Positions 11,490 to 22,631 of a stretch of DNA of 33,759 nucleotides are shown here, piece by piece. The first letter of the stretch is position 1. The number at the start of each line of letters is the position of its first letter. The translations under genes were made by a program, and so were the position numbers. The notes under the pieces were generated by a model. That model was not told the DNA's origin. It ran no database searches and was given only the letters and a program-made list of their open reading frames with translations. This DNA is from a virus. The stretch is from IMG/VR virus record IMGVR_UViG_3300030110_003973, positions 1 to 33,759 of that record; one strand, written 5' to 3'.

Positions 11490-11520
11490 AAAAGCGTTAT
11501 ATAAGAGAGAGAGAGTATAT

Positions 11521-11696
11521 AGTCTTTTCGATAAGTTTATATATGGTTTTTTTAGGGTATATAAGGTTTTCGCAAGGTTTATAAGGTTTTTTAAGCATAT
11601 ATAAGGTTTTCGATAAGTTTATATACCCCTTTTTTTAGGTTATAAGTCTTTCGATAAGGTTATATACTATGTTTTCGAGGTTAGGGGGCTTATATA
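11521..11696. repeat. Iteron-like array with about 41-bp period
   Basis: Units of the type AGGTTTTCGATAAGTTTATA start at 11521, 11564, 11604 and 11645, with a diverged fifth at 11671. The core TTTTCGATAAG (or TTTTCGCAAGG) recurs about every 40-42 bp and each core is followed by a TATA-rich step. A 41-bp period is close to four helical turns, so bound proteins would lie on one face of the DNA. This fits initiator-binding iterons of an origin; an array of tandem promoters is the alternative. Confidence 0.55.
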
Positions 11697-11778
11697 CTTT
11701 TCGGGTACATGTGCGGGCAAAGTATATATACTAGGTTTCGCATCGGGCATGCGGGGCGGACGGGCTTAAGGATAATCA

Positions 11779-11809
11779 GACGCTTGCGAGGAAAGATTAT
11801 ATACTAGGT
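11779..11809 (+). promoter_or_regulatory. Bipartite viral promoter copy 1
   Basis: GACGCTTGCGAG at 11779-11790 followed by TTATATACTAGGT at 11797-11809. The spacing of 18 nt is shorter than the 25-29 of the other copies. No gene starts at the expected distance; it may drive a non-coding transcript or be a relic. Confidence 0.5.
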
Positions 11810-11903
11810 TGTCAATAGATAGACAGGGCCGGACATAGGCGCCAAGTATTTTGGGGGGTATATAATCTTTGCGAAAAGACTATAAGGTATTAATTATTTA
11901 TAT

Positions 11904-11928
11904 ACTAAGTGTATTTTTTACACCTAGT
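11904..11928. repeat. Palindromic operator-like element
   Basis: ACTAAGTGTA (11904-11913) and TACACCTAGT (11919-11928) form an inverted repeat with one mismatch around five T. A close direct copy of most of the element lies at 12466-12486, next to the TATA of the minus-strand gene at 12426, and related TTTTTACACC/GCACCTAGT pieces occur near 11029, 12541 and 12721. Suggests a binding site for a dimeric regulator. Confidence 0.45.
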
Positions 11929-12027
11929 ATCCAACATCCCCATAGGTGCAGAAAAAACACCAAGTCGCCGCCCCCGTGAAATCCTACCCGAAACTAACCC
12001 CCTTATATACTTTGGCCTCTGAAAGTC

Positions 12028-12426
12028 TCACCAATACCAAATTTCTGAGCCGTCCGAATTTCTGAGGTAGTCGAAAAGATACTCCTTCGCCTCTCTTAGC
12101 GTCTTGCTGATGGGCGGCATGCCGCCGGCCTCCGTTCGGATGGGGTCGAAATGGTTTATTCGGTTCTTGCAGGTTTCCGGGCGGACGTAAATTGTCCATC
12201 GGGGGCGCTTGTGGACTCTCACGGCGTCCTCAATAATCACATTACCTAGTGATATTTCAGCCCCTAGAATCACGGCTCGATAATCGCCGGCCTCGCTCTT
12301 CTTGAATTCGATGTGGTCGAAGTTGCCGAGGTAATCACGGAAATTTGACCCGGTGGGGCTACCGTCCATCCTCGCGGCCTCTAGGGCTATCCTAGTAAGT
12401 CGGCGGTGTTGCGCGTCTGTGTTCAT
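12028..12426 (-). CDS. 132-residue protein of unknown function
   Basis: ATG 12426 is preferred to an upstream in-frame start because a TTTAAGTG box (about 12449-12456) is centred 26 nt before it. Starts MNTDAQHRRLTRIALEAAR, then FRDYLGNFDHIEFKKSEAG, a beta-rich middle (RAVILGAEISLGNVIIED), RPRWTIYVRPETC and a helical end LREAKEYLFDYLRNSDG. Reads like a folded alpha/beta protein. No family recognised. It heads the series of minus-strand short genes and shares promoter style with the gene at 11059-11367. Confidence 0.6.
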   Translation of the reverse strand: MNTDAQHRRLTRIALEAARMDGSPTGSNFRDYLGNFDHIEFKKSEAGDYRAVILGAEISLGNVIIEDAVRVHKRPRWTIYVRPETCKNRINHFDPIRTEAGGMPPISKTLREAKEYLFDYLRNSDGSEIWYW

Positions 12427-12448
12427 ATCCCTTGAGGGGGGCCTATGC

Positions 12449-12486
12449 ACTTAAACCTATCTTTCACTAAGTGCATTTTTTACACC
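12449..12486 (-). promoter_or_regulatory. Promoter and operator-like block of the 12028-12426 gene
   Basis: On the minus strand: GGTGTAAAAAATGCACTTAG (part of the repeated operator-like element, 12467-12486), a short spacer, then the TTTAAGTG box, then a C-run before the ATG at 12426. The operator abuts the region where TFB would bind. Confidence 0.45.
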
Positions 12487-12735
12487 ACTATATATACTAA
12501 CATAACCTTTATAGACCGACCGCCCTTGGCCGGCAAGTTTACTTTTTGCACCTAGTGCGAGAGTGACAGTAAACATTATAAGGCGTGCATGAGATTTCTA
12601 GAGATAAAGTTTTCCGAGACAAAAACCGTTGTACTGCGAGCAAGTCGCCCTAAATTCGCTTCTAGGCCGGCCTCAAAGGGTGAAATCGGCGTTTTGTGAA
12701 AAACGTTGTACTGCGGCGATGTAAATTTTACACCG

Positions 12736-12745
12736 AGTATATAAC
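12736..12745 (+). promoter_or_regulatory. TATA box of the 12767 small gene
   Basis: AGTATATAAC centred 26 nt before the ATG at 12767, leaderless geometry. It follows a TTTTACACC copy of the operator-like repeat. Confidence 0.5.
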
Positions 12746-12766
12746 ATTTGGGGTCAAAAAAATCCC

Positions 12767-12901
12767 ATGCACCCTTATAACCGTTTCGGTTTGGCCCGCC
12801 CCGCACAAATCCCAAACGAGAGCGCAACCAAGTATATAATGGTTGTGAATTTTGCCTCTAACCGGCAGGTTCATAAGCAAACCCGGCCCTGCTCAATTTG
12901 A
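12767..12901 (+). CDS. Possible 44-residue protein leading the plus-strand cassette
   Basis: ATG 12767 to TGA 12901, starting MHPYNRFGLARPAQIPNES. Supported by a TATA box at exactly leaderless distance and by a TGATG overlap with the next gene. Against it: a TATA-like sequence for the next gene lies within it, and composition is unremarkable. An antisense frame over the same DNA was rejected. Confidence 0.4.
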   Translation: MHPYNRFGLARPAQIPNESATKYIMVVNFASNRQVHKQTRPCSI

Positions 12902-13896
12902 TGATAGGCAGACAGCCGATAACCACAGAACACGCTAAGGTGTGGGCCGAATTCAGAGAGGCCCGGTCCAAATTGACCCACGCCGAGAGCCTCGGTTGTA
13001 TGTGCGGAGACATGCCGGAAGCGGAAATAATAGAGGCAAGAGAGCGAGTCTTTGAGAACAGCGACCCGGCCTCATGTGAGCATCCGCATTACGGTTGCAA
13101 AGAGAAAGAATTTTGTTACACCTGCGCGAACAATAATCATCAAGTCTGGGGCCGAGTGCGTGCCATTGGCGGATATGACGAGTTCGGGCGCTGGCAATCA
13201 ATCACCCTAGACGAGTTAAAAATAATCCTTGACCAACCATATTACGACCCCGCAGAAGAGGCCAAAGATAAGGGCTGGGGCGAGCCGTCCGCGTGGTGCT
13301 TCGATTTCAAGTCACTCAGCCCATTCAAAAACGGCATCTCAGACCGCGACAGGATACGCAAGAAACTTCAACACCGACTCAAGAGGCGAGCGGCCCAGAT
13401 GGAAAAGAGGCTTATCAAAGAGAGCGGCGGCAAGAAATGCAGAATGAAGGCGTGCAACGGCGCCATTCACCTGCCCGGCGAGAAGTGCCCGACGATGGCG
13501 GCACTAGGCAAGAAGGGAGGCAAGGCCGGCAAGGGTGACAGCAAGGCCCGCACCGGAGACAAGAACGGACGCACCAAGCGCCGCAAGTGCTGCGGCACCA
13601 TGTACAGAAGCCCTCACGCGCTCACCTGCAAGAAGGCAAAGCCCACACTCCGCAAGGATGCCCAGAATATCAAAATTCGCAAGATTCACAAGGAGGCCAT
13701 AAAGAAGCCTGAAATTTCATGGGCCGGGTTCGCAGTACCTCCGGGCATCATGGGCAAGGCGATTCTAAGAAGCATTCGCGGCAAGTGCGGCGGTTGCTCC
13801 AAAGAGATGCCAGCCCGCGAGGCCGTCCGAATCCACCGGGCCGACCTAGTCCAAGACAAGCAGGACGCCCGGCTAATATGCGGGGGGTGCGCTTGA
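12901..13896 (+). CDS. Multi-zinc-ribbon basic protein
   Basis: 331 residues with at least three cysteine clusters: C-E-H-P-H-Y-G-C..FCYTCANNN near residues 59-77, CRMKAC...GEKC with KRRKCCGTMY in the middle, and a final KCGGCSKEM....LICGGCA. The centre is rich in K, G and R (KKGGKAGKGDSKARTGDKNG), a flexible nucleic-acid-binding linker. A TTCATAAGC box is centred about 27 nt before ATG 12901. It is probably a DNA- or RNA-binding, possibly regulatory or structural protein. No named family is recognised. First long plus-strand gene after the repeat region, hence likely early. Confidence 0.7.
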   Translation: MIGRQPITTEHAKVWAEFREARSKLTHAESLGCMCGDMPEAEIIEARERVFENSDPASCEHPHYGCKEKEFCYTCANNNHQVWGRVRAIGGYDEFGRWQSITLDELKIILDQPYYDPAEEAKDKGWGEPSAWCFDFKSLSPFKNGISDRDRIRKKLQHRLKRRAAQMEKRLIKESGGKKCRMKACNGAIHLPGEKCPTMAALGKKGGKAGKGDSKARTGDKNGRTKRRKCCGTMYRSPHALTCKKAKPTLRKDAQNIKIRKIHKEAIKKPEISWAGFAVPPGIMGKAILRSIRGKCGGCSKEMPAREAVRIHRADLVQDKQDARLICGGCA

Positions 13897-14055
13897 ATGG
13901 GTGAAGTTGCTATTGTGATAAAAGAAATGCAAGAGGCGCGCGCCGATTGGAGGAGAATTCTTGACCGCCGAAATGAAGAGGTCGCAAAGATGAACGCGAC
14001 GCTTGCAAACGCGGAATCACAACCCTTAATAACTAGGACAAACAGGACAGTTTAG
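13897..14055 (+). CDS. 52-residue helical protein carrying promoter motif in its 3' end
   Basis: ATG 13897 abuts the TGA of the zinc-ribbon gene. The product is one long charged helix (KEMQEARADWRRILDRRNEE) followed by NATLANAESQ. The TLAN codons are the GACGCTTGCAAACG block of the next promoter, and the TATA-like CTTAATAAC is also inside the gene. Function unknown. Confidence 0.5.
   Translation: MGEVAIVIKEMQEARADWRRILDRRNEEVAKMNATLANAESQPLITRTNRTV
13998..14037 (+). promoter_or_regulatory. Bipartite viral promoter copy 2
   Basis: GACGCTTGCAAACG at 13998-14011 and a weak TATA (TTAATAAC, starting 14026), 28 nt from motif start. Would give a transcript starting about 20 nt before ATG 14076. 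Lies wholly inside the 52-aa gene. Confidence 0.6.
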
Positions 14056-14075
14056 AACCAAAGGAGAACGAAAAC

Positions 14076-14360
14076 ATGAAAGCGAACCTAGAAGATATTT
14101 TGAACATACAAGGTAACCAAATAGCCGAGGCGATAAACCTCATTAACCTGATTGCGGACAACAGAAGGACGGCAATCAAGTTACTGCTAAGGACAGCCGC
14201 AGAGAAGAACGCGGCGCTATTTGAGCAGGACGACAACCCCGACGCATACGAAGTGTGGAGAGGCTACCAAATCACCGGTTGGCTCACCAACGGCCCCGGC
14301 ACGATGGGCAGTTTCAGAAGACAACTCAGAGACCTCAAGGCAAAGGAGGCGAGCGAATGA
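14076..14360 (+). CDS. 94-residue helical protein of unknown function
   Basis: ATG 14076 with AAGGAGAAC upstream. Predicted mostly helical: a leucine/isoleucine-rich N-terminal half (DILNIQGNQIAEAINLINLI) that could be a coiled coil, then TAIKLLLRTAAEKNAAL and RRQLRDLKAKEASE. First gene of a cassette driven by promoter copy 2; ATGA overlap with the next gene indicates coupled translation. No family recognised. Confidence 0.6.
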   Translation: MKANLEDILNIQGNQIAEAINLINLIADNRRTAIKLLLRTAAEKNAALFEQDDNPDAYEVWRGYQITGWLTNGPGTMGSFRRQLRDLKAKEASE

Positions 14361-14629
14361 AAAAGGTGTTCGTCCTATCCTCCGGGGCGTGGGGAGAAGT
14401 TGTGTTCGCGTCTAAGGTTGCCGCGCTTAACTTCCTCTGCGAGACCGAGGCCGAAGACCACCACCGCGGCCGGATGAGCCGCAGAGAGATGGCCGAAGCG
14501 ATAGAGACTCAACAGTTGTCCGGTTTCAGTGACACGCTCGCGGAGTGGACTTTAACCATCTCCTACATGCTGACGAACCGCGAAACTCTCCGATGGGTGG
14601 AGGCAGTCAATGCGGGGGTCTCAGAATGA
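14357..14629 (+). CDS. 90-residue protein of unknown function
   Basis: ATG 14357 overlaps the previous TGA by ATGA. Begins with a beta-hairpin-like MKKVFVLSSGAWGEVVF, then a helix ASKVAALNFLCETEAED, a basic MSRREMAEAIETQQL and a final WTLTISYMLTNRETLRWV. Ends with an ATGA overlap to the next gene. Second gene of the copy-2 cassette. Function unknown. Confidence 0.55.
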   Translation: MKKVFVLSSGAWGEVVFASKVAALNFLCETEAEDHHRGRMSRREMAEAIETQQLSGFSDTLAEWTLTISYMLTNRETLRWVEAVNAGVSE

Positions 14630-14880
14630 GAGCGCTAATAACCCCCGGCGGGAACGCGGCAAGAGACCAATGGGTTTTCTTTCAGGACAACGGCAGACTG
14701 TTCAAGTCCTACGGGTCAAGCATTGCCCACGTCACTTTTGACGGAGAGGTTACGCTTTTTGACCCCTATTGGGATATGTACTCGGCCACCACTAACCGAT
14801 ATTTACTCCAATTCCTAAACGAGTATTCAATCAAAGACGTGCGCGAGAAAGTCAAGTCGGGAGAATACCGCGTAAAGTGA
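14626..14880 (+). CDS. 84-residue protein of unknown function
   Basis: ATG 14626 overlaps the previous TGA. Beta-rich first half (WVFFQDNGRLFKSYGSSIAHVTFDG, quoted in part as VFFQDNGRLF), then a helical end (YLLQFLNEYSIKDVREKVKSG). Last gene of the copy-2 cassette; the next promoter begins 18 nt after its stop. Family unknown. Confidence 0.55.
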   Translation: MRALITPGGNAARDQWVFFQDNGRLFKSYGSSIAHVTFDGEVTLFDPYWDMYSATTNRYLLQFLNEYSIKDVREKVKSGEYRVK

Positions 14881-14897
14881 ACGCGGAAGGAGAAAAC

Positions 14898-14935
14898 GAC
14901 GCTTGCAAACGAGCGATGAAACATTTAATATAGTA
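14898..14935 (+). promoter_or_regulatory. Bipartite viral promoter copy 3
   Basis: GACGCTTGCAAACGA at 14898-14912, CGATGAA at 14914-14920, and TTTAATATAG starting 14924, 26 nt from motif start. TATA centre is about 26 nt before ATG 14954. Confidence 0.7.
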
Positions 14936-14953
14936 GCAAGGAGAGGACAAGAT

Positions 14954-15262
14954 ATGAAGCAGACAGTAACGGAGAACGAATTTATAGAAGCCTTTGAACG
15001 CAGGGGTAGAGAGGACAATTTCACCTTCAACGGGCGAAGGGCACTCTTTAGACACCTGACCGATTGGGAGAGAGACACCGGCAAAGAATTGGAACTCGAT
15101 GTAATCGGGATTTGCTGTGAGTGGACAGAGTACGCAAACGAAGCAGAGTGCCGCGAGGCATACGGGCTTGACGAAGACGAGAACCTAGAATTTTACACGA
15201 CAGTCATACAGGTTGACGAAGTAGGATGGTCAAACCACAGAATAATCGTGATGGATTGGTGA
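14954..15262 (+). CDS. 102-residue acidic protein of unknown function
   Basis: Start at ATG 14954, fixed by AAGGAGAGG upstream and by the promoter position. Sequence begins MKQTVTENEFIEAFERRGR and has an aromatic/acidic second half (GICCEWTEYANEAECREAYG, LEFYTTVIQVDEVGW). This YxxxxE..EYxNxxE.xxaY layout recurs in small phage proteins of unknown role. Followed by a GGTGAT site overlapping its stop that serves the next gene. Confidence 0.55.
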   Translation: MKQTVTENEFIEAFERRGREDNFTFNGRRALFRHLTDWERDTGKELELDVIGICCEWTEYANEAECREAYGLDEDENLEFYTTVIQVDEVGWSNHRIIVMDW

Positions 15263-15268
15263 TTAATT

Positions 15269-15436
15269 ATGGTAAAAGAAACGCAAATAACAATCACCGT
15301 TCACGGTGACCTCATGGACTCCTCGCATGAAATGTTCGATGATTTCTGGGAATTCGTGCTATCAACAAAGAAGGTCAAGAAGAAGCCCAAATTCAATTTC
15401 AGGTACCTAAAAAATAACGGGGAGGTTGTCGAATGA
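15269..15436 (+). CDS. 55-residue protein of unknown function
   Basis: ATG 15269 with GGTGAT at 15258-15263. An N-terminal beta strand (TQITITVHGDL), an aromatic helix (EMFDDFWEFVLS) and a lysine-rich stretch (KKVKKKPKFNFRYLKNNG). Ends with an ATGA overlap to the next gene. Function unknown; the basic patch suggests nucleic-acid contact. Confidence 0.5.
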   Translation: MVKETQITITVHGDLMDSSHEMFDDFWEFVLSTKKVKKKPKFNFRYLKNNGEVVE

Positions 15437-15582
15437 AGAAGATAATCCGCCGATGGTCGCCACACTTTGAAGAGTGGGAGTACACAGAATTCAACACCCT
15501 AAGAGAGTACTGTGATTGGCTCCTTTTTGAGTTGAACAATCATACACAATTTGATGAGGTTTACGAGGAGGTGAATAACTAG
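15433..15582 (+). CDS. 49-residue protein of unknown function
   Basis: ATG 15433 overlaps the previous stop. Aromatic and acidic: WSPHFEEWEYTEFNTLREYC then DWLLFELNNHTQFDEVYEEV. Last gene before a 468-bp gap. No family recognised. Confidence 0.5.
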   Translation: MKKIIRRWSPHFEEWEYTEFNTLREYCDWLLFELNNHTQFDEVYEEVNN

Positions 15583-15704
15583 AGTGGGAAATGGGGGTCG
15601 TTCCTTAATCAGGCATAGCATGTTAAGGACGTTTAGCGGGACAGGTATTGTTTTTTTTCTTAGTTCGTTGTTTTCTTTGCCTTACCCGCACCCCACCCAA
15701 CTCA

Positions 15705-15733
15705 AAACCGGCGGCTTGAGTCACCGCCGGTTT
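15705..15733 (+). terminator. Perfect 10-bp hairpin, probable terminator
   Basis: AAACCGGCGG (15705-15714) and CCGCCGGTTT (15724-15733) are perfect complements around the loop CTTGAGTCA. It lies 120 nt after the end of a gene cassette. A CTTGACTCACC echo of the loop follows at about 15755. Confidence 0.55.
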
Positions 15734-15794
15734 CCGTTCTTGCATCACTTCCGGGGCTTGACTCACCCCAACTTTTTCTAACTTAAAAATAAAT

Positions 15795-15818
15795 GGAGGT
15801 GATGACATGGACGCCTAA
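15795..15818 (+). other. Best ribosome binding site in the region before a three-codon ORF
   Basis: GGAGGTGAT at 15795-15803, exactly 3 nt before ATG 15807, whose frame reads M-D-A-stop. Perhaps a leader mini-ORF, a trap or the relic of a lost gene. An alternative ATG at 15802 would give 19 hydrophobic residues but is too close to the site. Confidence 0.35.
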
Positions 15819-15895
15819 CGCCATGTTATTTTTTATTGACATTTTTTTGTGGCAAAAGTAAAATTTTGCTGCTGAAATTTGCATAAGGTTTTTTT

Positions 15896-15935
15896 GACGC
15901 TTGCAAAAGTAAAATCGAAATGACTATATACTGAC
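15896..15935 (+). promoter_or_regulatory. Bipartite viral promoter copy 4
   Basis: GACGCTTGCAAAAG at 15896-15909 and CTATATACTG from 15924, about 28-29 nt from motif start. First of two tandem promoters; only a 12-codon frame starts nearby. Confidence 0.55.
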
Positions 15936-15994
15936 AGCCCTTATGATTAGGACAAAAATAACGCGAACAATCCATATATAAGTCTTACGGTTTT

Positions 15995-16030
15995 GACGCT
16001 TGCGAGCGCGTGATAGTACATTTAATATAG
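15995..16030 (+). promoter_or_regulatory. Bipartite viral promoter copy 5
   Basis: GACGCTTGCGAGCG at 15995-16008, TGATAG at 16011-16016, and TTTAATATAG at 16021-16030, spacing 26. TATA centre is about 26 nt before ATG 16051, so the transcript should be leaderless. Confidence 0.7.
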
Positions 16031-16050
16031 TAGTGAGTATAGGGTGAATC

Positions 16051-16431
16051 ATGGTAGTAAAAATAACCAAACTAGAAAAGCAACTCCTAACGGACATTGC
16101 GCACAGCGACCATTCAAGCGACGGCTACGGCTTCACAATGTGGGTCGGCGTAGGATATGAGAGCCTCCCCATGAGACAGGTACGCGCTCTAATTACGACC
16201 CTTAAAGAGAAGGGAGTTATCCACTATTCCCCACCCAACCCAAGATATGACGAGAAGGCGCACATTTGCCCCCGTGCAGAATTCCTTGAGGGCGGAGAAA
16301 GAACGCTTAACAAGTGGGGTAACGAGTGGGTAGAACCCGACCATGAGAGGTTTGGCGGGGATTGGAATTCCGACCCCTTCACCGATGGTATTCACGGTTT
16401 CCGATACATGAACCTAGAGGTGATTGAGTGA
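16051..16431 (+). CDS. 126-residue winged-helix-like protein
   Basis: ATG 16051 at leaderless distance from promoter copy 5, with GGGTGAATC also just upstream. Residues 1-60 could form a small helix-turn-helix with wing (KLEKQLLTDIAHSD, MRQVRALITTLKEKGVIHYS). The rest is aromatic and acidic (WGNEWVEPDHERFGGDWNSD). A transcription-regulator role is possible but only inferred. First gene of a two-gene cassette. Confidence 0.55.
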   Translation: MVVKITKLEKQLLTDIAHSDHSSDGYGFTMWVGVGYESLPMRQVRALITTLKEKGVIHYSPPNPRYDEKAHICPRAEFLEGGERTLNKWGNEWVEPDHERFGGDWNSDPFTDGIHGFRYMNLEVIE

Positions 16432-16832
16432 AGAATTTCCTAACCTACGAGGATTTCCAAGAGGAATACGGAGAGAGGGCAAGCCAATCTTGGTGGCAAG
16501 ACTGGCTAATGGAGTCCATCACCTTCAAGTACATCATGGATAAAGACATATGGGTATGGTCGGAGTACATTGATACCGGAGGGTACTTTGAGAAGTACGA
16601 CGTAACCCGCGACTTCTACGGATTTTTCAAGAAATGCACCTGCAACGACGGGCAATTCAGGCACTACATCTATGACTCGGTGGCAGAAGAGCGCATCAAG
16701 ATTGAGTGCCCCCACTGCTTTGAAAAGAAGATGCATGAGATGAGCCTAGAGGGTATCAAGAATGACATGGTTTGGACAGGTGTACAAATTGACGAGAATG
16801 GGGAAGTCAAGATGACGCTTGCGAAGGTGTGA
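16428..16832 (+). CDS. 134-residue protein with zinc-ribbon-like cysteines
   Basis: GTG 16428 overlaps the previous stop and has GGTGAT at 16419-16424. N-terminal aromatic helix region (SQSWWQDWLMES), then KKCTCNDG and IECPHCFEKK, a CxC/CxxC pair that could bind zinc, then VWTGVQIDENG. The last codons (TLAKV, stop) are the upstream block of promoter copy 6. Unknown function. Confidence 0.55.
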   Translation: MKNFLTYEDFQEEYGERASQSWWQDWLMESITFKYIMDKDIWVWSEYIDTGGYFEKYDVTRDFYGFFKKCTCNDGQFRHYIYDSVAEERIKIECPHCFEKKMHEMSLEGIKNDMVWTGVQIDENGEVKMTLAKV

Positions 16833-16850
16833 TAGAACAGTTAATATAGG
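16814..16850 (+). promoter_or_regulatory. Bipartite viral promoter copy 6
   Basis: GACGCTTGCGAAGG at 16814-16827 in the 3' end of the preceding gene, GTGATAGAACA overlapping its stop, and GTTAATATAGG at 16840-16850, spacing 26. Confidence 0.7.
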
Positions 16851-16886
16851 TCAGCAAATATAGCAATATTATAGGAGATAGAGAAG

Positions 16887-17081
16887 ATGACAACGGTACA
16901 AGATTTAGACAAGGCGATAAAGTTGATACGAACAGCGCACGAAGCGCTAGAGTTTGCGAGGCCACACATACCCGAAGAAATGTGGGTTACCATAAACACC
17001 GGGGCCTCTTACGAGATAGAGCATTTACTATGCGCGTTGATAGAGAAGAAGAGAAGGAAGAACATAGAGGAGAGTCTTTGA
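16887..17081 (+). CDS. 64-residue helical protein
   Basis: ATG 16887 with AGGAGATAGAG upstream. Helical throughout: VQDLDKAIKLIRTAHEALEF, then IEHLLCALIEKKRRKNIEE. First gene of the promoter copy-6 cassette; its stop precedes the next ATG by two nt. No family recognised. Confidence 0.5.
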   Translation: MTTVQDLDKAIKLIRTAHEALEFARPHIPEEMWVTINTGASYEIEHLLCALIEKKRRKNIEESL

Positions 17082-17083
17082 AC

Positions 17084-17644
17084 ATGTCGAAAACAAGAGC
17101 GCACCGATGCGACCAGTGTGACGATGGGTGGGTACACTATGCCTCCGTTGTCAGAGAGGCAGACCCAGAGAATGGAGTTACCAAACTCATCAAGCCGGCG
17201 GTTTTCATAACTCACGACAGGTCGAAGAAGGTGGCAGTACTCAGCGCCAACGGTGCCGGGATATGCCACTGCTGTGCCGCAAGATACGAGAAGAAGACTA
17301 AGATTGGCAACAGCAAACTTAATCTCACCCACGTCCAGCATTGGGACGAGGTGCAGTATGCGACTTACGATTACGAGACAGGCGAGATAATGATTACCGA
17401 GGCTCTCGTTGACATGTGGATGTACTTTGAGAGGCAACCGTTCATAGATGACGCAACCGATGCTCTCCACCACGGCGGCCTCTTAGAGGCGCCGCTAGAA
17501 ATAGACCCTAGAAAAGAGTCTATGGAGCGGTTTGAGGAGGCATTCAAAGAAGCAGAGGGAGACTTTGAAGACCAATACGATTTCATCAACCACAAGGAGA
17601 AGGCGAACATGGCAAGAGCGAAAGCGACGCTTGCGAACGAGTGA
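17084..17644 (+). CDS. 186-residue zinc-ribbon protein
   Basis: ATG 17084 is preferred over TTG 17078. Cysteines at HRCDQCDDGWVHY and GICHCCAARYEKK make a split four-cysteine zinc ribbon of about 65 residues with a beta insert (KPAVFITHDRSKKVAVLS). A helical acidic C-terminus follows (ERFEEAFKEAEGDFEDQYDF). The final TLANE codons form the GACGCTTGCGAACGA block of promoter copy 7. Perhaps a nucleic-acid or protein adaptor; function unknown. Confidence 0.6.
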   Translation: MSKTRAHRCDQCDDGWVHYASVVREADPENGVTKLIKPAVFITHDRSKKVAVLSANGAGICHCCAARYEKKTKIGNSKLNLTHVQHWDEVQYATYDYETGEIMITEALVDMWMYFERQPFIDDATDALHHGGLLEAPLEIDPRKESMERFEEAFKEAEGDFEDQYDFINHKEKANMARAKATLANE

Positions 17645-17664
17645 TGAAAAGATATAAGTACTAG
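17626..17664 (+). promoter_or_regulatory. Bipartite viral promoter copy 7
   Basis: Full-consensus GACGCTTGCGAACGA at 17626-17640, GTGATGAAAA at 17641-17650, GATATAAGTACTAG at 17651-17664, spacing 25. Drives the DUF932-like gene; TATA centre is about 27 nt before ATG 17683. Confidence 0.75.
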
Positions 17665-17682
17665 ATGAAACAAGGTGATAAT

Positions 17683-18702
17683 ATGGCAGAAACAGTTGGA
17701 CTGAACCAAACAATAATCAGCGCTTTCAACCGCATAGGGCAGGAAGCAGAGGGAACCACCGGAAGGGAGATTCTCAAAAACGCAGGGCTAGACTTCACAG
17801 TCGAGAAGAGGCACCTGTACGACCACACGGGTAACAAACTTCCCGGCGGACACAGAGTCGTGACTAGGACAGACACAAACCAACCACTAGGTGTAGTGTC
17901 TAAGAAGTACGAGACTTTCCAGAATATTCAAGTGATTAACCTGTTTGAAGAGTTGTGCAAAGACACCGGCGCACAGATTGACCGCATAGGAGCAGTAGAC
18001 AACGGCAGACAGATATTCATGTCCTTCCGCAACCCGGAGGGTCTATCATTCGCTAACGGTAGCGAGCAGGAAGAGTACGACATCTATTGGTACCTACTAT
18101 CTAGCCACGACGGTTCGATGGGTCTCAAGTTGTTCCCCTCTCCGGTCAGACTATTCTGCGCGAATCAGGGTGCCATGCTCCACTCATTCCTAGTGCGAAA
18201 CGGCATCAACCCCCGCAAACTATCCATCCGCCACTCGGCGCTCATGGACTTGCGACTAGAGGACTTGAAGATGAACCTAGGTATCATCAACGACCTGTCA
18301 CACGCATTCGTAGAAGAGCAAGCAATGCTAATCAATCAAAGCATGGACATGGGCGACCGTGTAGAGTACTACATAGACGTTCTCGGACTATCACAGAACG
18401 AGACCATGCTAAAGGGCGGCAAGGACTACGACCCAAACAACCCCTTCGGGCTTGGTACTCGCGCTAACAACACTATAGACGTACTCATGGAGTTAGAAAA
18501 CTCAACCACTAACACAGTCGGCAACATGGGAGGTACAAAATTCCAAGCCTACAGCGCAGTCACCGAGTACCTAGACCACCGCTGGACTATGGACAAGGAA
18601 GGCAAACTCCTAGTCCCTAACGAGAAGAGGGTAGAGTCTGCGGTCATGGGACCCGGCGCAAGGATGAAGGCACAGGCATACGAGAAGATACTGGTGGCAT
18701 GA
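17683..18702 (+). CDS. DUF932-type phage/plasmid protein
   Basis: 339 residues from ATG 17683, preceded by GGTGAT at 17674-17679; an in-frame ATG at 17665 is less likely. The middle matches the DUF932 (phage/plasmid-like TIGR03299) style: LGVVSKKYETFQN, GRQIFMSFRNPEG, RLFCANQGAMLHSF, SIRHSALMDLRLEDL, and a C-terminal helical region with WTMDKEGKLLVPNEKR. The family is widespread in phages and plasmids, without a firm biochemical role. It has its own full-consensus promoter and is the largest gene of the small-gene region, suggesting high expression. Confidence 0.8.
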   Translation: MAETVGLNQTIISAFNRIGQEAEGTTGREILKNAGLDFTVEKRHLYDHTGNKLPGGHRVVTRTDTNQPLGVVSKKYETFQNIQVINLFEELCKDTGAQIDRIGAVDNGRQIFMSFRNPEGLSFANGSEQEEYDIYWYLLSSHDGSMGLKLFPSPVRLFCANQGAMLHSFLVRNGINPRKLSIRHSALMDLRLEDLKMNLGIINDLSHAFVEEQAMLINQSMDMGDRVEYYIDVLGLSQNETMLKGGKDYDPNNPFGLGTRANNTIDVLMELENSTTNTVGNMGGTKFQAYSAVTEYLDHRWTMDKEGKLLVPNEKRVESAVMGPGARMKAQAYEKILVA

Positions 18703-18890
18703 ATATGAAACTAAAAGAATTCTCCTGTGTCCTCAACCTCAAGACGTTGAAGGAAATCATCGCCAACGTAGAGAACAGAGGCTTCGGTAAGGAAAACATA
18801 GACAGCGGCTTGGCTACTGCGGTGTTGGAATTCGTAACGACCGAGGATTTCCCGACTTCACTACTCCTCACAAACAGAGGAGAGTGGTGA
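18699..18890 (+). CDS. 63-residue protein of unknown function
   Basis: ATG 18699 overlaps the DUF932 stop by ATGA. Mixed helix/strand: LKEFSCVLNLKTLKEIIANV, SGLATAVLEFVTTEDFPTSL (partly quoted). Co-transcribed with the DUF932 gene. Family unknown. Confidence 0.5.
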   Translation: MNMKLKEFSCVLNLKTLKEIIANVENRGFGKENIDSGLATAVLEFVTTEDFPTSLLLTNRGEW

Positions 18891-18891
18891 G

Positions 18892-18993
18892 GTGAATGTC
18901 TTCTTCGCGACTTGCGACTACGAGATTCTTTACAATCAATCTAGTTTATTTTATGGCAAAAATACTAACATAGTTTCGAATCCGCAAGAGTGA
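18892..18993 (+). CDS. Possible 33-residue peptide
   Basis: GTG 18892 to TGA 18993, starting MNVFFATCDYEILYNQSS. It follows the previous stop closely with GAGGAGAGTGG upstream, in a gap with no other gene. Weak support. Confidence 0.3.
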   Translation: MNVFFATCDYEILYNQSSLFYGKNTNIVSNPQE

Positions 18994-19044
18994 GTTTCGA
19001 ACACAACTTTGTCACCGTGGCACTTCATAGAAGGAGAGGAAAGC

Positions 19045-19308
19045 ATGAAAATGAATGATAATCTAAGAAAAATAGCGAATGAAACGATAAAGGCCGGGAC
19101 CGAATTCCGCACCATGTGGAACGAAGCCATAGACCAATTAGAGCGTGAGGGCTGGTACGAATTTTGGGACGAGCATGAAATACCCGTACCGCTTGACGAA
19201 TTGGCTCTAGCGGTGGCTTCTGTATGGCAAGAGTGGCGTGATGAGGATGAGCGAGAAGAGCGAAGACTTGACCCTAATTATGGCACATACGAACCGGACG
19301 AGGGGTGA
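19045..19308 (+). CDS. 87-residue acidic protein of unknown function
   Basis: ATG 19045 with AAGGAGAGG upstream. Helical and very acidic: NDNLRKIANETIKAG, EAIDQLEREGWYEFWDEHE, VWQEWRDEDEREERR. Could be a DNA-mimic-like or protein-binding factor, but nothing specific is recognised. GGTGAT at its stop serves the next gene. Confidence 0.55.
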   Translation: MKMNDNLRKIANETIKAGTEFRTMWNEAIDQLEREGWYEFWDEHEIPVPLDELALAVASVWQEWRDEDEREERRLDPNYGTYEPDEG

Positions 19309-19312
19309 TTGA

Positions 19313-19615
19313 ATGAACAGCAACTTTAACAGTAAAGATAAAATCAAAGACAGGCAGGAGAGCGTAAAGGCACTGTGGGAGATGGAGTTTGGAAATCTAG
19401 GATTGGAGAGGTACGTTCCAGAGAAAGGTTGGGGCTACAACGTAGTCAATAGAACGTGGTGCGACACCATCAAGTACGAGGTTTGTCCCTTCTATGATGG
19501 CGACATCCCGATGGAGATGGATGTCGTGATGTGCCGTGACTTGCAAGATGTGGGCGAAGCAATACGCTTGATAATGACCGGCGAGTTAGCAAAAGAATAC
19601 GGGGTGGAATTATAA
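19313..19615 (+). CDS. 100-residue protein of unknown function
   Basis: ATG 19313 with GGGGTGATT upstream, four nt after the previous stop. A basic helical start (DKIKDRQESVKALWEMEF), then a cysteine/aromatic middle (GYNVVNRTWCDTIKYEVCPF) and helical end. Overlaps the next frame, which has no standard start codon. Function unknown. Confidence 0.55.
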   Translation: MNSNFNSKDKIKDRQESVKALWEMEFGNLGLERYVPEKGWGYNVVNRTWCDTIKYEVCPFYDGDIPMEMDVVMCRDLQDVGEAIRLIMTGELAKEYGVEL

Positions 19616-19782
19616 CACCAAAAGTAACTTGCTCGAATTGTGGAAGCGATACCGCCCTTTATCTCGATGACCCGAATGACGATACTATGAGGCGATGCAT
19701 GAGCGCAGTGAATAACAAGTGGAAGGGACAATACGCGCAATGCTACGCGGAGGAAGAATCGACGCTTGTGAACGAGGAATAG
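19612..19782 (+). CDS. 56-residue zinc-ribbon protein with apparent ATA/ATT start
   Basis: The frame reads TPKVTCSNCGSDTALYLDD..RRCMSAVNN..QCYAEEE and ends TLVNEE. CxxCG plus two later cysteines make a plausible zinc ribbon, so the frame is coding before its first ATG (19687), and there is no ATG, GTG or TTG between the upstream in-frame stop and the ribbon. GGTGGA lies three nt before ATA 19612, the same spacing as GGTGAT-AAT-ATG elsewhere. Its 3' end is the upstream block of promoter copy 8. Starts at ATT 19609 or ATA 19612 are the best fits. Confidence 0.5.
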   Translation: MTPKVTCSNCGSDTALYLDDPNDDTMRRCMSAVNNKWKGQYAQCYAEEESTLVNEE

Positions 19783-19801
19783 GAGTAATTATATACTAGG
19801 T
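19761..19801 (+). promoter_or_regulatory. Bipartite viral promoter copy 8
   Basis: GACGCTTGTGAACGAGG from 19761, GAATAGGAG, then TTATATACTAGGT at 19789-19801, spacing 28. TATA centre is about 26 nt before ATG 19818. The block encodes the end of the upstream gene. Confidence 0.7.
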
Positions 19802-19817
19802 AATAGCAGGTGGTAAT

Positions 19818-20351
19818 ATGAACATATTTGTACTAGACGAAAACCCAGAAGTAGCAGCACAAATGTACTGCGACAAGCACGTACCCAAAATGGTAGTCGA
19901 ATTGTATCAACAATTAGGCTCTGCCGTCATACGCCACGGTGCTACGCCTGACGTTATGCCACTCACTAAGAAGGGTACGCCACTTAAGGGAGGTTACCAC
20001 AACCATCCCGCGACCCGCTGGGTAGGTCAATCCAAAGATAACTACCATTGGACTATGCTTCACGCTCTTGCTCTGTGCAAAGAGTACACCAAGAGGTTCG
20101 GTAAGGTTCACTTCTGTGAGACAGGTATCAGACAACTATGTGACCCCTTCTTTTCAGAGATGATAGAGGACGGCCCGCAAACTCCTTACGCTCTGTGCAT
20201 GCCCGACGAATTCACCTTTGAGTTAGCCTTTGCTTCTCATGCTACAGGCGATGACGCAGTACAGGCTTACAGGCGCTACTACCACAGCAAAGAGTTTGCT
20301 CAGTGGAACAAGGGCACACCTGCACCTGATTGGTGGATGGGGGGTGTGTAA
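19818..20351 (+). CDS. Conserved phage protein, MNIFVLD family
   Basis: 177 residues starting MNIFVLDENPEVAAQMYCDKH, a start I recognise from a conserved protein of many marine phages, followed by HNHPATRWVGQSKDNYHW, LALCKEYTKRFGKVHFCETG and a C-terminal YRRYYHSKEFAQW..GTPAPDWW. Conserved histidines and aromatic residues suggest an enzyme or nucleotide-handling fold, but the role is not established. It has its own promoter (copy 8) with GGTGGTAAT just before the ATG, and overlaps the next zinc-ribbon gene by eight nt. Confidence 0.7.
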   Translation: MNIFVLDENPEVAAQMYCDKHVPKMVVELYQQLGSAVIRHGATPDVMPLTKKGTPLKGGYHNHPATRWVGQSKDNYHWTMLHALALCKEYTKRFGKVHFCETGIRQLCDPFFSEMIEDGPQTPYALCMPDEFTFELAFASHATGDDAVQAYRRYYHSKEFAQWNKGTPAPDWWMGGV

Positions 20352-20544
20352 TATTAGCACAAAAGAAAAACCAACCTGTGTACTCTGTGGAGTAAAATGT
20401 GAGAATCAATGGGGCAACAACCCTGCCCCCCTCGTTAGCATGGCTTACGGTGTGTGTTGCGACAGATGCAACGTGCGTCACGTACTCCCTGCTCGATGGG
20501 AATACCTGCGGCACGACGACATATACGCTACGGAGGAAGAATAG
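20344..20544 (+). CDS. 66-residue zinc-ribbon protein
   Basis: GTG 20344 is the first standard start, overlapping the previous gene end, with GGTGG upstream. CVLCGVKC and CCDRCNV form a four-cysteine zinc ribbon; an acidic tail follows. Its TAG is followed at once by the next ATG. Part of the copy-8 cassette. Confidence 0.6.
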   Translation: MCNISTKEKPTCVLCGVKCENQWGNNPAPLVSMAYGVCCDRCNVRHVLPARWEYLRHDDIYATEEE

Positions 20545-20967
20545 ATGAGTGATTGGCGTGACGAAATGGGTTTACTTCCCCGTAAAACTAGAGAGATGTG
20601 GGAATTGAATGGCTATTGCGAGAAGTGCCGAAAGCCACATCAGAATATGAGCCAAGCCGAAAGAAGGGAGAGGACTAATCACCCTATCAAGTATTGGCAA
20701 AACTTCTATGAGAATTTGATGAGTGACGATGATGTTATTCGATGTGCCTTCGGCTTCACTCCTTTTATTGAATCGGTGGCAGAAGGAGAATTGGTTGATA
20801 TGCCGGAGTCACCTTACGCCGCCGCACGAATGTATAGACAGTCCGCCGGATTACTTAAAGCAATCTATGAGTATTTTGGTATGGGTGGATTTGAAGAGGC
20901 GCTTGTAAAGTTGAGAAGTAATCCTATCTTCGACCCGAACGACGAATGGTGGCAGCACAATGGTTGA
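20545..20967 (+). CDS. 140-residue protein of unknown function with CxxC pair
   Basis: ATG 20545 directly after the TAG of the upstream gene, with CGGAGGA upstream. N-terminal LPRKTREMWELNGYCEKCRKPH, then helical PIKYWQNFYENLMSD and YAAARMYRQSAGLLKAIYEYF. The CEKC..H may bind metal. Overlaps the following membrane-peptide gene. Function unknown. Confidence 0.55.
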   Translation: MSDWRDEMGLLPRKTREMWELNGYCEKCRKPHQNMSQAERRERTNHPIKYWQNFYENLMSDDDVIRCAFGFTPFIESVAEGELVDMPESPYAAARMYRQSAGLLKAIYEYFGMGGFEEALVKLRSNPIFDPNDEWWQHNG

Positions 20968-21040
20968 TACTTTTGTCGCAATAATAATTCTGTTTGGCGT
21001 ATGGGTAATGTTGGAGGATATGTGGGCAAGACAATATTGA
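20960..21040 (+). CDS. 26-residue membrane peptide
   Basis: ATG 20960 overlaps the previous gene by eight nt; TGA 21040 overlaps the first bases of promoter copy 9. The product is a single hydrophobic helix (VDTFVAIIILFGVWVML). One of several one-pass micro-proteins in this genome; function unknown. Confidence 0.45.
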   Translation: MVDTFVAIIILFGVWVMLEDMWARQY

Positions 21041-21074
21041 CGCTTGCGAACGAACGATAGCAGGGTTTAAATAG
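21039..21074 (+). promoter_or_regulatory. Bipartite viral promoter copy 9
   Basis: Full-consensus GACGCTTGCGAACGA at 21039-21053, CGATAG at 21055-21060, GTTTAAATAG at 21065-21074, spacing 26. TATA centre is 26-27 nt before ATG 21096, although GGTGAT also lies at that point. Confidence 0.75.
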
Positions 21075-21095
21075 AAGCGACTATTAGGTGATAAT

Positions 21096-21422
21096 ATGGT
21101 AAGAGAAAGACTTAACAAAATGTACAGAAATAAGCATAATGACCGAGAGGTCCTATGTACGGACGTGGCAATATCAGACTTTGGTATTTACACTTGGACG
21201 CTACGCGGGAACGACGGTCAGTACGATGTGGTTACAATGACTGAGCGCGACATGTGTGAGCATTGGGTATTGATAGAGGAAGAAGACGACCTTATGGATT
21301 CTGAGAATGTAGTCACATACAAGGGTTGGAAAGAGGATTTCTACACAGAAGGGGGACTCAGCCGGTATCATCAGATAAAGGCAAAGAACGAGCAGAAGGC
21401 AAGCAACGAGGAGGAAGAGTGA
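21096..21422 (+). CDS. 108-residue protein of unknown function
   Basis: ATG 21096 with GGTGAT three nt upstream and at leaderless distance from promoter copy 9. Beta-rich middle (VLCTDVAISDFGIYTWTLRG, quoted in part) ending VVTMTERDMCEHWVLIEEED; lysine/glutamate-rich tail. First gene of a seven-gene cassette of overlapping small genes ending at 22378. Confidence 0.55.
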   Translation: MVRERLNKMYRNKHNDREVLCTDVAISDFGIYTWTLRGNDGQYDVVTMTERDMCEHWVLIEEEDDLMDSENVVTYKGWKEDFYTEGGLSRYHQIKAKNEQKASNEEEE

Positions 21423-21572
21423 ATGTCAGATTTAACACAAGCACAGAGGATGAAACTGCCAACGAAGCACGAAATCCCTACCGAACACTTGAACGAGTGG
21501 GGTTACCCTAACCACATGTATGTTTTCAGAGGATTCGTAGGTGGATTCTCTAGGTGGGAGAGGATAGCATGA
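21423..21572 (+). CDS. 49-residue protein of unknown function
   Basis: ATG 21423 abuts the previous TGA. Starts MSDLTQAQRMKLPTKHE and ends FRGFVGGFSRWERIA. It overlaps the next gene by ATGA. No family recognised; support is from packing within the operon. Confidence 0.5.
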   Translation: MSDLTQAQRMKLPTKHEIPTEHLNEWGYPNHMYVFRGFVGGFSRWERIA

Positions 21573-21778
21573 GTTATAACTCCGAGTGGACTGAGTATTA
21601 CCAGTACCTAGAGAACCTGAGACAATCGGGCGCGGTAAATATGTATGGTGCAAGACCTTACCTAGAAAGATACATGGAAGAGGACGACATCAACGTAAGC
21701 GCGGCAACCGTACTAGCCTCATGGATGGAGAATTATAACGCACTGGTCCAAGACGGGGTGATTACCAGATGGGAGTGA
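21569..21778 (+). CDS. 69-residue protein of unknown function
   Basis: ATG 21569 overlaps the previous TGA, with GGGAGAGG upstream. Aromatic helical start (EWTEYYQYLENLRQSG), then a second helix VSAATVLASWMENYNALV. Overlaps the winged-helix gene by ten nt; its GGTGAT near 21757 serves that gene. Confidence 0.5.
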   Translation: MSYNSEWTEYYQYLENLRQSGAVNMYGARPYLERYMEEDDINVSAATVLASWMENYNALVQDGVITRWE

Positions 21779-22134
21779 CTGATAGGAGGGTCAAGGTACC
21801 CGGTACTAACATCAAGGTAAAACACCATCGCGTTTTGGCGGCGGTAGCGAGACATCTAATACTCAAAGAAAGCGCACCTACGAACGAGTTGATGTACGAG
21901 GCGACCATGAGAAACGGCAGACCGATTTTTCATTATCTGAAAGGTGTTAGAGCATTGACTAGCGTGTTGAAGTGCCATCCTCATTTTGCGAATTACAAAG
22001 ACAAAGTGGACGGAAGGCTAATGGCCCACTGGTTTTTGACGGACAAGGAGACCTATCTTCTCGGTGAGGGACAAGCATTCCCATCCGAATACTATGACGC
22101 TAAAACTAACAAGAAAAAGTCGGAGGCATTCTGA
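21769..22134 (+). CDS. Winged-helix protein, viral paralogue family
   Basis: 121 residues with GGTGAT six nt before ATG 21769. Basic start (RRVKVPGTNIKVKHH), then helices RVLAAVARHLILKE, APTNELMYEATM and GVRALTSVLKCHPHF with a wing to HWFLTDKE. The layout matches proteins at 22616, 24723 and 28877, so this is one of several winged-helix paralogues. Probable DNA-binding regulator, candidate for recognising a viral promoter class. Confidence 0.6.
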   Translation: MGVTDRRVKVPGTNIKVKHHRVLAAVARHLILKESAPTNELMYEATMRNGRPIFHYLKGVRALTSVLKCHPHFANYKDKVDGRLMAHWFLTDKETYLLGEGQAFPSEYYDAKTNKKKSEAF

Positions 22135-22223
22135 TGCGCGAGCCTACTAAGAATATGATAAAAATAACTATCGTATGTATTATTAGCATGATAGTAATGC
22201 TAGGTGTGGCGGTGGCAGCATGA
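22134..22223 (+). CDS. 29-residue membrane peptide
   Basis: ATG 22134 shares a base with the upstream TGA; TGA 22223 overlaps the next start. A basic start then one transmembrane helix (ITIVCIISMIVMLGVAVAA). Function unknown. Confidence 0.45.
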   Translation: MREPTKNMIKITIVCIISMIVMLGVAVAA

Positions 22224-22378
22224 ATGACATAAAGCGAATCAAGAAGGCTCTACATGGTATCAGGGATTACATCGTGCGAGGTCCAGATTGGCATCCCATG
22301 TGGTACAACGAGGTGTTAGATGACATTCATTTCATACAGGACTGGTTTAACCAAATCGTGGAGTCCGGCGAAGAGTAA
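22220..22378 (+). CDS. 52-residue protein of unknown function
   Basis: ATG 22220 overlaps the previous TGA. Basic helical start (DIKRIKKALHGIRDYIVR), aromatic centre (DWHPMWYNEVLDDIHFIQDW), acidic end. Last gene of the copy-9 cassette; promoter copy 10 begins four nt after its stop. Confidence 0.5.
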   Translation: MNDIKRIKKALHGIRDYIVRGPDWHPMWYNEVLDDIHFIQDWFNQIVESGEE

Positions 22379-22381
22379 AAC

Positions 22382-22420
22382 GACGCTTGCGTACACGTAA
22401 ACGATAGTATTATATACTAC
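22382..22420 (+). promoter_or_regulatory. Bipartite viral promoter copy 10
   Basis: GACGCTTGCGTACA from 22382, ACGATAG at 22401-22407, TTATATACTAC from 22410, spacing 28. Expected transcript start is about 15 nt before ATG 22455, leaving room for the GGTGAT site. Confidence 0.7.
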
Positions 22421-22454: not shown

Positions 22455-22631
22455 ATGACAACAAAAAAGATGATAGTTGAGACAACAACAGGCGACACAA
22501 CAATACTGCTAAGTGAGGTTGTGGCGATGACAAAGACGGAGACATACGGCATTGTGGACATCCACATGAGGTCGGGTACTATTTTTACTGCCCGCATGTG
22601 TAAGGAGGTTGAAGCATGGCTAGAAGAGTAG
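22455..22631 (+). CDS. 58-residue protein of unknown function
   Basis: ATG 22455 with GGTGAT upstream. Beta-rich, starting MTTKKMIVETTTGDTTILLS, then YGIVDIHMRSGTIFTARMC; reads like a small beta-barrel or SH3-like domain. Overlaps the next winged-helix gene by 16 nt. First gene of the copy-10 cassette. Function unknown. Confidence 0.5.
   Translation: MTTKKMIVETTTGDTTILLSEVVAMTKTETYGIVDIHMRSGTIFTARMCKEVEAWLEE

Follow-up and report, generated by a model that had tools for sequence, protein, structure and literature searches.

A repeated sequence upstream of TATA boxes in a row of small viral genes, and a candidate virus-encoded regulator

The virus record IMGVR_UViG_3300030110_003973 (33,759 bases; the window, meaning the whole stretch of DNA analyzed) carries genes for a terminase, a portal-like protein (37.1 bits, slightly below the Pfam cut-off of 39.1), a DUF932 protein, an RFC-like clamp loader and a pyrimidine-dimer glycosylase family protein. 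It also contains a repeated element with the core GACGCTTGCGAA that, together with a TATA box, forms the strong part of a promoter tag. An earlier note on this DNA had listed ten copies, and we found all ten in place, on the + strand and with 0-3 mismatches. At a limit of 3 mismatches, 100 shuffled sequences gave a mean of 0.67 copies and a maximum of 4, and the window has no further match to GACGCTTGCGAACGA on either strand; allowing R at base 10 adds two weak matches, at 26901 (-) and 33519 (+). The copies span a series of small genes between 11.8 and 22.4 kb, and neither the terminase and portal genes nor the genes after 23 kb have any, so the regulon is not virus-wide as the note had proposed. 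TATA-like octamers start 25-28 nucleotides (nt) after nine copies and 17 nt after the tenth, at 11779 (the note had put them at 25-29 and 18). An ATG codon that opens an open reading frame (ORF) lies 56-78 nt after eight of the ten, in agreement with the eight gene starts reported before, and none lies at that distance after the copies at 11779 and 15896. Six of the eight genes that follow have no match in Pfam; the others encode the DUF932 and pyrimidine-dimer glycosylase family proteins.

The element is conserved in related viral contigs, one of the checks that the note had suggested; of the outcomes that the note would have counted as refuting, a lack of enrichment over shuffles and a lack of conservation thus did not occur. 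Searching IMG/VR with the terminase gave 107 relatives, from which 80 loci (69-100% identical) were kept. We scanned 50 records for the core, made up of 49 terminase-locus contigs and one pattern match (L099; codes with L or G are our own labels for loci and genomes). GACGCTTGCGAA occurs within 1 mismatch in 16 of the 50, and reversed-pattern controls gave no match in 49 of the 50 and two in G018. Not all 16 records hold promoter copies; for instance, no convincing TATA box accompanies the matches in G021, G023 and G024. A search with the motif-plus-TATA pattern added G369, G370, G372 and G373, with 10, 4, 13 and 6 matches, not all of them promoters. A shared sequence around the promoter (the TFB recognition element, BRE, and TATA box) before several genes of one virus is thus present in the window and in its relatives. 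The bases 3' of the core vary between virus groups.

To describe the promoters we collected sites with at most 1 mismatch to the 12-mer, and with flanks present, from chosen records comprising 571 kb of selected sequence. The 132 raw sites were reduced to 94 by removing near-duplicates on similarity, against a uniform chance expectation of about 2.5; this count is descriptive, the sources having been picked partly for carrying the motif or the regulator described below. A TATA-like box starts 24-28 nt after the motif start in 87 of the 94 sites, so the fixed spacing that the note had expected holds (two of the fetching patterns demanded a TATA word within an offset range, and most sites were fetched otherwise). 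The best offset is 26 in 52 sites, 27 in 20, 25 in 9, and 24 and 28 in 3 each; offsets of 16, 17 and 34 occur once each, and four sites have no TATA box. The boxes range from consensus to TTAAAAG-like. A spacing of 17-18 nt, about one helical turn less, is seen at 11779 in the window, at its orthologs in G029 and G007, and at position 12230 of G010, where the TATA score is poor. The central block of the note, YGATAG or GATGA, fared less well than its spacing. The words RATAG and RATRR are enriched relative to shuffles (21 versus 4 and 44 versus 17), and YGATAG itself is present in only 6 and GATGA in only 2 of the 94 sites; the middle block is a weak purine-rich or A-rich tendency.

The distance from the start of the TATA box to the ATG is 29-30 nt in 58 of the 73 sites that could be read, a set that leaves out sites with no TATA score of at least 6 or no following ATG-initiated ORF. 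Archaeal transcription usually starts about 26 nt after the centre of the TATA box. With this spacing the ATG is the predicted first base of the transcript, and therefore the mRNAs from these promoters should be leaderless. Despite the predicted leaderless starts, a Shine-Dalgarno-like word lies 5-15 nt 5' of the ATG in 62 of the 73 sites. Because it precedes the ATG, it would not be included in a leaderless transcript, and it could instead serve read-through transcripts from the preceding gene.

Directly before the array in the window lies a gene (12898-13896) for a Cys/Lys-rich protein, which we regard as the candidate regulator. Homologs are directly before the array in G010, G029, G032, G025, G027, G040, G372, G369, G370 and G020. 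We searched IMG/VR with a profile of 12 members of the family and found 28 viral loci, 25 of which carry the array, usually with its first copy near the stop codon of the regulator. Eight of the 28 are contigs that had been used for the query, and 18 of the 20 others carry copies. The three loci that lack the array are L219 and L223, which end within about 300 bp, and L222 (G018), which has a different motif. Among the 80 loci chosen by terminase, 8 have both regulator and motif, 9 the regulator only, 1 the motif only and 62 neither (Fisher P = 7e-6; the loci are not mutually independent, many are too short to reach the array, and L053, from G024, was scored as having both on one weak site, its main motif being different). 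A reversed-core control gave 0 sites in these 80 loci, versus 24.

Regulator and motif also change together. The terminases of L057 and L069 are 97-99% identical to those of G032, G025 and G027, and the regulators of the two groups are 58-60% identical. The basic stretch of the regulator reads SWVQNRIGSNNPNF or SWIQNRIGSKNPNF in L057 and L069, and SKVRSGSNNGRF or SKARTGSNNGRF in G032, G025 and G027. Between these groups the copies have switched from GACGCTTGCGA to GACGCTTWRGA: six copies of GACGCTT(A/T)(A/G)GA are present in L057 and seven on the contig of L069 (as L221), with no canonical copies in either, and G032, G025 and G027 have 5, 3 and 1 canonical copies and no variant ones. The switch can be followed at individual promoters. 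An orthologous gene of 79 amino acids (86% identical) has AACGCTTGTGTAGCA in L067, a weaker copy that falls outside both the canonical and the variant counts, and GACGCTTAAGAATCA in L057, each 56 nt before the ATG, and the site after this gene is likewise switched. In the sequence comparison, the pair formed by L057/L069 and G032/G025/G027 is the strongest single item for covariation. Natural paired variants are thus of canonical, TTWRGA and GCTTGCGTGGTCG types. A quick core-gene tree rejected a clade of the canonical-motif carriers (P = 0.0018).

Table. Coordinates of the candidate regulator gene and of the motif copies in the window
Feature	Position	Strand	TATA element	Remarks
Candidate regulator gene, 332 amino acids	12898..13896	+		CCHC-like knuckle, basic GG-rich stretch, C-terminal CxxC...CxxC
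Copy 1, GACGCTTGCGAGGAA	11779..11803	+	11796 (offset 17, one turn shorter)	no gene directly after
Copy 2	13998..14033	+	14026 (TATA-like, TTAATAAC)	gene 14076-14360
Copy 3	14898..14932	+	14925	gene from ATG 14954 to 15262
Copy 4	15896..15931	+	15924 (CTATATAC)	no gene before next copy
Copy 5	15995..16029	+	16022	gene 16051-16431
Copy 6	16814..16848	+	16841	gene 16887-17081
Copy 7	17626..17660	+	17653 (TATA-like, TATAAGTA)	DUF932 gene, likely start ATG 17683, end 18702
Copy 8	19761..19795	+	19788	pyrimidine-dimer glycosylase family gene 19818-20351
Copy 9	21039..21073	+	21066	gene 21096-21422
Copy 10	22382..22416	+	22409	gene 22455-22631

The conserved parts of the regulator family are C-x4-C-x4-H-x(3-8)-C in most members, G-x2-GG ... 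K-x-R-x-G-x2-NG, and a C-terminal CxxC ... CxxC. The regulators of G010 and G029 lack the C-terminal part, those of G018 and G016 lack the CCHC-like knuckle, and some members carry an extra N-terminal stretch with SSRSLGGHTTQYRKL. The protein may bind zinc or DNA. No credible relatives were found in Pfam, in PDB sequences or by Foldseek/VIA, and no winged helix was recognized. Papillomavirus E6 proteins matched through the C-terminal ribbon, with E-values above 0.2 or Z of about 2. In PHROGs, 7 of 29 members weakly matched a single entry whose function is unknown (phrog_7826, best E = 0.0009), and one member matched the Pfam KGG motif (E = 0.083). The regulator of L208 has no relative in the phage collection, and the profile found none in 96 genomes of the order of G051, a search without a positive control.

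The regulator ORFs of L205, L211, L212 and L220 each have a TATA box of their own, lacking the motif and placed some 30 nt ahead of a possible ATG, as fits a factor that is made first. The words ACTAAGTGTATTTTTTACACC / CACTAGGTGTAAAAA are repeated upstream of the regulator gene, at 11904-11937, 12466-12486 and 12720-12747 in the window and at 5480-5595 in L211, and are possibly control elements of the regulator itself. Further upstream, copy 1 lies about 1.1 kb before the gene and has orthologs in G029, G007, L017 and L019. Around it, at 11515-11900 between the terminase side and the regulator gene, TATA-like words occur in degenerate 40-nt repeats (TATATAAGGTTTTCGATAAG and similar).

Other motif classes were recognized in related viruses by counting TATA-anchored words and reading by eye, without a significance test, and the assignments for G023 and G038 are uncertain. 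A GCTTGCGTGGTCG motif is common to G018 and G016, the two genomes whose regulators lack the knuckle, and G016 has five exact copies besides others. One exact copy, at 15332 of G016 (L136), falls within the beginning of the regulator ORF (15301-15786) and precedes an internal ATG; it could serve in feedback control. Distant regulator homologs in G024 and G043 (E-values 6e-7 and 9e-6) and in G038 (by BLAST to G024) go with other motifs, and in these three genomes array and regulator gene lie on opposite strands. We found no clear motif of their own in L084, L083 and L080. Separately, at least dozens of copies of GTTACAAAAC/GTTACAAAAG are present at 27-33 kb of G020 (L119), mostly on the minus strand, and many CTATCTACAA repeats lie near AT-rich stretches at 19.3-23.8 kb of G023 (L139, L140).

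Two features of the array would suit a quite different origin, in which the repeats are joints of module exchange or relics of the coding end of the regulator and not regulatory sites. Some blocks of synteny between the window and G029 or G010 end in or near the copies at 13998, 19761 and 21039, and the first copy in L208, as in some others, runs over the last codons of the regulator, which read DACEA and then stop. Window copies within genes are read as ACG CTT GCG, in another frame, others are intergenic, and the spacing to TATA and ATG is fixed, all of which makes this origin very improbable. Because reading frames differ from copy to copy, we also rejected the idea that the motif results from a conserved C-terminal peptide. 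The copy at 19761 is followed by different genes in the window and in G029.

In cellular genomes the pattern GACGCTTGCGAAN{13,16}TWAWATA had 29 matches among 84,980 species genomes, where chance alone, estimated by hand, would give about 30. The matches are scattered, with six in five metagenome-assembled genomes (MAGs) of Thermoguttaceae and one in an archaeal MAG, upstream of an ORF. A looser pattern was present in 1 of the 318 genomes of the order of this archaeal MAG, that MAG alone. A host regulon was rejected on these two results. In the Thermoguttaceae MAGs (L148, L150, L153, L154, L157 and L161), which are unrelated bacteria, we noticed GACGCTTGCGAA followed at similar spacing by a TTAAAATA or GTAAAATA word, in recurrent contexts.

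These searches bear on two further explanations that dispense with a viral regulator. The basal machinery (for example a host or virus TFB variant) might read the motif as a second core-promoter element, which would account for the fixed geometry relative to TATA and ATG; this is improbable given that cellular genomes have the motif with a TATA box at chance level only, and that near-identical viruses differ in their motif. The virus might alternatively have borrowed the binding site of a host transcription factor, in the way that the host protein Sta1 reportedly acts on SIRV promoters. The archaeal MAG with the full pattern upstream of an ORF, where near-matches also exceed the control, speaks for a borrowed site, but the occurrence in a single genome of 318 and the switch of motif between viruses with 97-99% identical terminases make it, if anything, slightly less probable than the core-promoter element.

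A terminase profile search of genome contigs found no relative. In the phage collection all matches to the window terminase are under 60% identity, and the terminase, clamp loader and a conserved protein of 436 amino acids have distant relatives or none. The best-scoring among the matches listed for the clamp loader are RFC proteins of haloarchaeal viruses, at 31-35%. Because of these matches and the TATA promoters we infer an archaeal host: the sequences probably belong to an uncultured virus family that infects archaea, and Poseidoniales would be a guess.

Several features read from the sequence (the enrichment of the motif, its confinement to one strand, its fixed distances to TATA and ATG, its conservation, its linkage to the regulator gene and the way that both change as a pair in near-identical viruses) point to a viral Cys/Lys-rich regulator that binds GACGCTTGCGAA upstream of the BRE and TATA box and activates the row of small genes. 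We put the probability of this at roughly 0.6. GACGCTTGCGAA would be an upstream site, one per promoter and roughly 15 nt ahead of the TATA box, bound by a virus-made regulator, most likely the protein encoded directly before the array. The regulator would be made first, from a promoter that lacks the motif; it would bind its sites from one face of the DNA, immediately ahead of the BRE and TATA box, and help the host TBP and TFB to load, so that a row of small, mostly leaderless genes, presumably early or middle ones, would be switched on. The copies with a one-turn-shorter spacing, which are few and mostly one orthologous site, fit a protein that must face TBP and TFB.

Several points weigh against this interpretation. 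No DNA-binding fold was recognized in the candidate regulator, and AlphaFold2 is confident for the C-terminal ribbon only (predicted TM scores of 0.37 and 0.41). Among the 80 terminase loci are one with the motif only (L025) and nine with the regulator only; of these nine, three (L017, L031 and L074) end in or soon after the gene, two (L057 and L069) carry the variant motif, and the regulators of the other four (L080, L083, L084 and L086) are distant ones. In the regulator tree, whose branches are very long and which is too saturated, the canonical-motif regulators do not come together (P = 0.027). The neighborhood of regulator and array means that linkage alone could explain both their co-occurrence and their joint exchange, and even in the comparison of L057/L069 with G032/G025/G027 the adjoining regulator and array may have been exchanged together. 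The archaeal genome with a full match has 24 near-matches (to the 12-mer, at most 1 mismatch) versus 9 for the reversed control. Lastly, in 7 of the 28 regulator loci, and likewise in the window, a single motif copy lies 0.4-1.1 kb upstream of the regulator gene, where it could provide feedback.

Such an upstream copy would also suit a repressor, for which the motif would be an operator: strong promoters would fire at once and the regulator would shut them off later. Many TATA boxes are indeed near consensus (up to 63 of the 94 sites score at least 7 at offsets 24-28, a summed and upper figure in which one site can count twice), and in the accessible text of one study Aca8 binding is called the likely cause of early-gene repression in SIRV2 (PMC11065993). 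The sites lie about 15 nt upstream of the TATA box at near-constant spacing, not over the BRE, TATA box or start, which to judge from the relevant part of PMC5512572 would suit an activator better. We favor the activator reading because this position, upstream of the BRE, matches that of archaeal activators; repression is rather unlikely in our estimate, and activation nearly three times as likely.

A broader proposal, to which we would give even odds on the sequences at hand, is that the system is a private promoter code: a new family of zinc-knuckle-like regulators would read the sites of the accessory row, and regulator and sites would change as a unit, also where the viruses are in other respects nearly the same. 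If this is true, swaps could keep the regulator of one virus off the gene row of another during co-infection. The site, its geometry, the candidate protein and the natural paired variants together make recognition directly testable by exchanging proteins and sites. The motif also lists, gene by gene, small genes of uncultured viruses whose proteins are likely to act on the host cell. For the activator that the earlier note left unnamed we can propose the product of the gene immediately preceding the array, whose sequence changes together with the motif.

Transcription regulators encoded by archaeal viruses are little characterized. We found no published description of the element in a literature search that lay outside most subscription papers and all preprints, and the sole paper in the searched text to contain the motif string concerns an oyster mitochondrial genome. 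The available text of PMC11065993 describes conserved regulatory sequences of early genes in Sulfolobales viruses, which were used to predict anti-defence genes. There, as here, a virus-specific sequence surrounding the BRE and TATA box recurs at several small genes of one virus and differs between viruses, and a virus-encoded regulator is inferred. The variable parts of those promoters lie both upstream and downstream of the core promoter, whereas our element is one 12-nt block about 15 nt upstream of the TATA box; the regulators there are winged helix-turn-helix or leucine-zipper-like repressors, whereas our candidate is Cys-rich and of no known family; and early expression is known there, whereas our genes are known from sequence alone. 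In the halovirus HF2, class I and II intergenic repeats were tested as promoters, and changes to the upstream alpha block and the BRE had no effect on activity in a reporter without virus, as far as the accessible account goes (PMC8707807). The likeness to HF2 is one of description: this tailed archaeal virus likewise has repeats that bear promoters and are conserved in relatives, and virus-encoded factors were proposed for them. Its repeats were tested, whereas ours are predicted, and that account identifies no regulator.

In site position relative to the BRE and TATA box, and in the constrained spacing of 87 of 94 sites, our element resembles the targets of Ptr2, TFB-RF1, EarA and the ara-box factor, archaeal activators that the consulted section of PMC5512572 places upstream of the BRE. 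Those, as described there, are host factors with few targets, whereas here one type of site marks a whole viral gene row. Among viral proteins, the portion of a 2017 review that we used names AvtR as the one archaeo-viral protein known to combine repression with activation, and describes AFV1p06, which like our candidate is virus-encoded and has zinc-type motifs (PMC5569661). AFV1p06 has classical C2H2 fingers (PMC3541406, in the text available), whereas the candidate regulator has a CCHC-like knuckle, a basic GG-rich stretch and a CxxC...CxxC ribbon.

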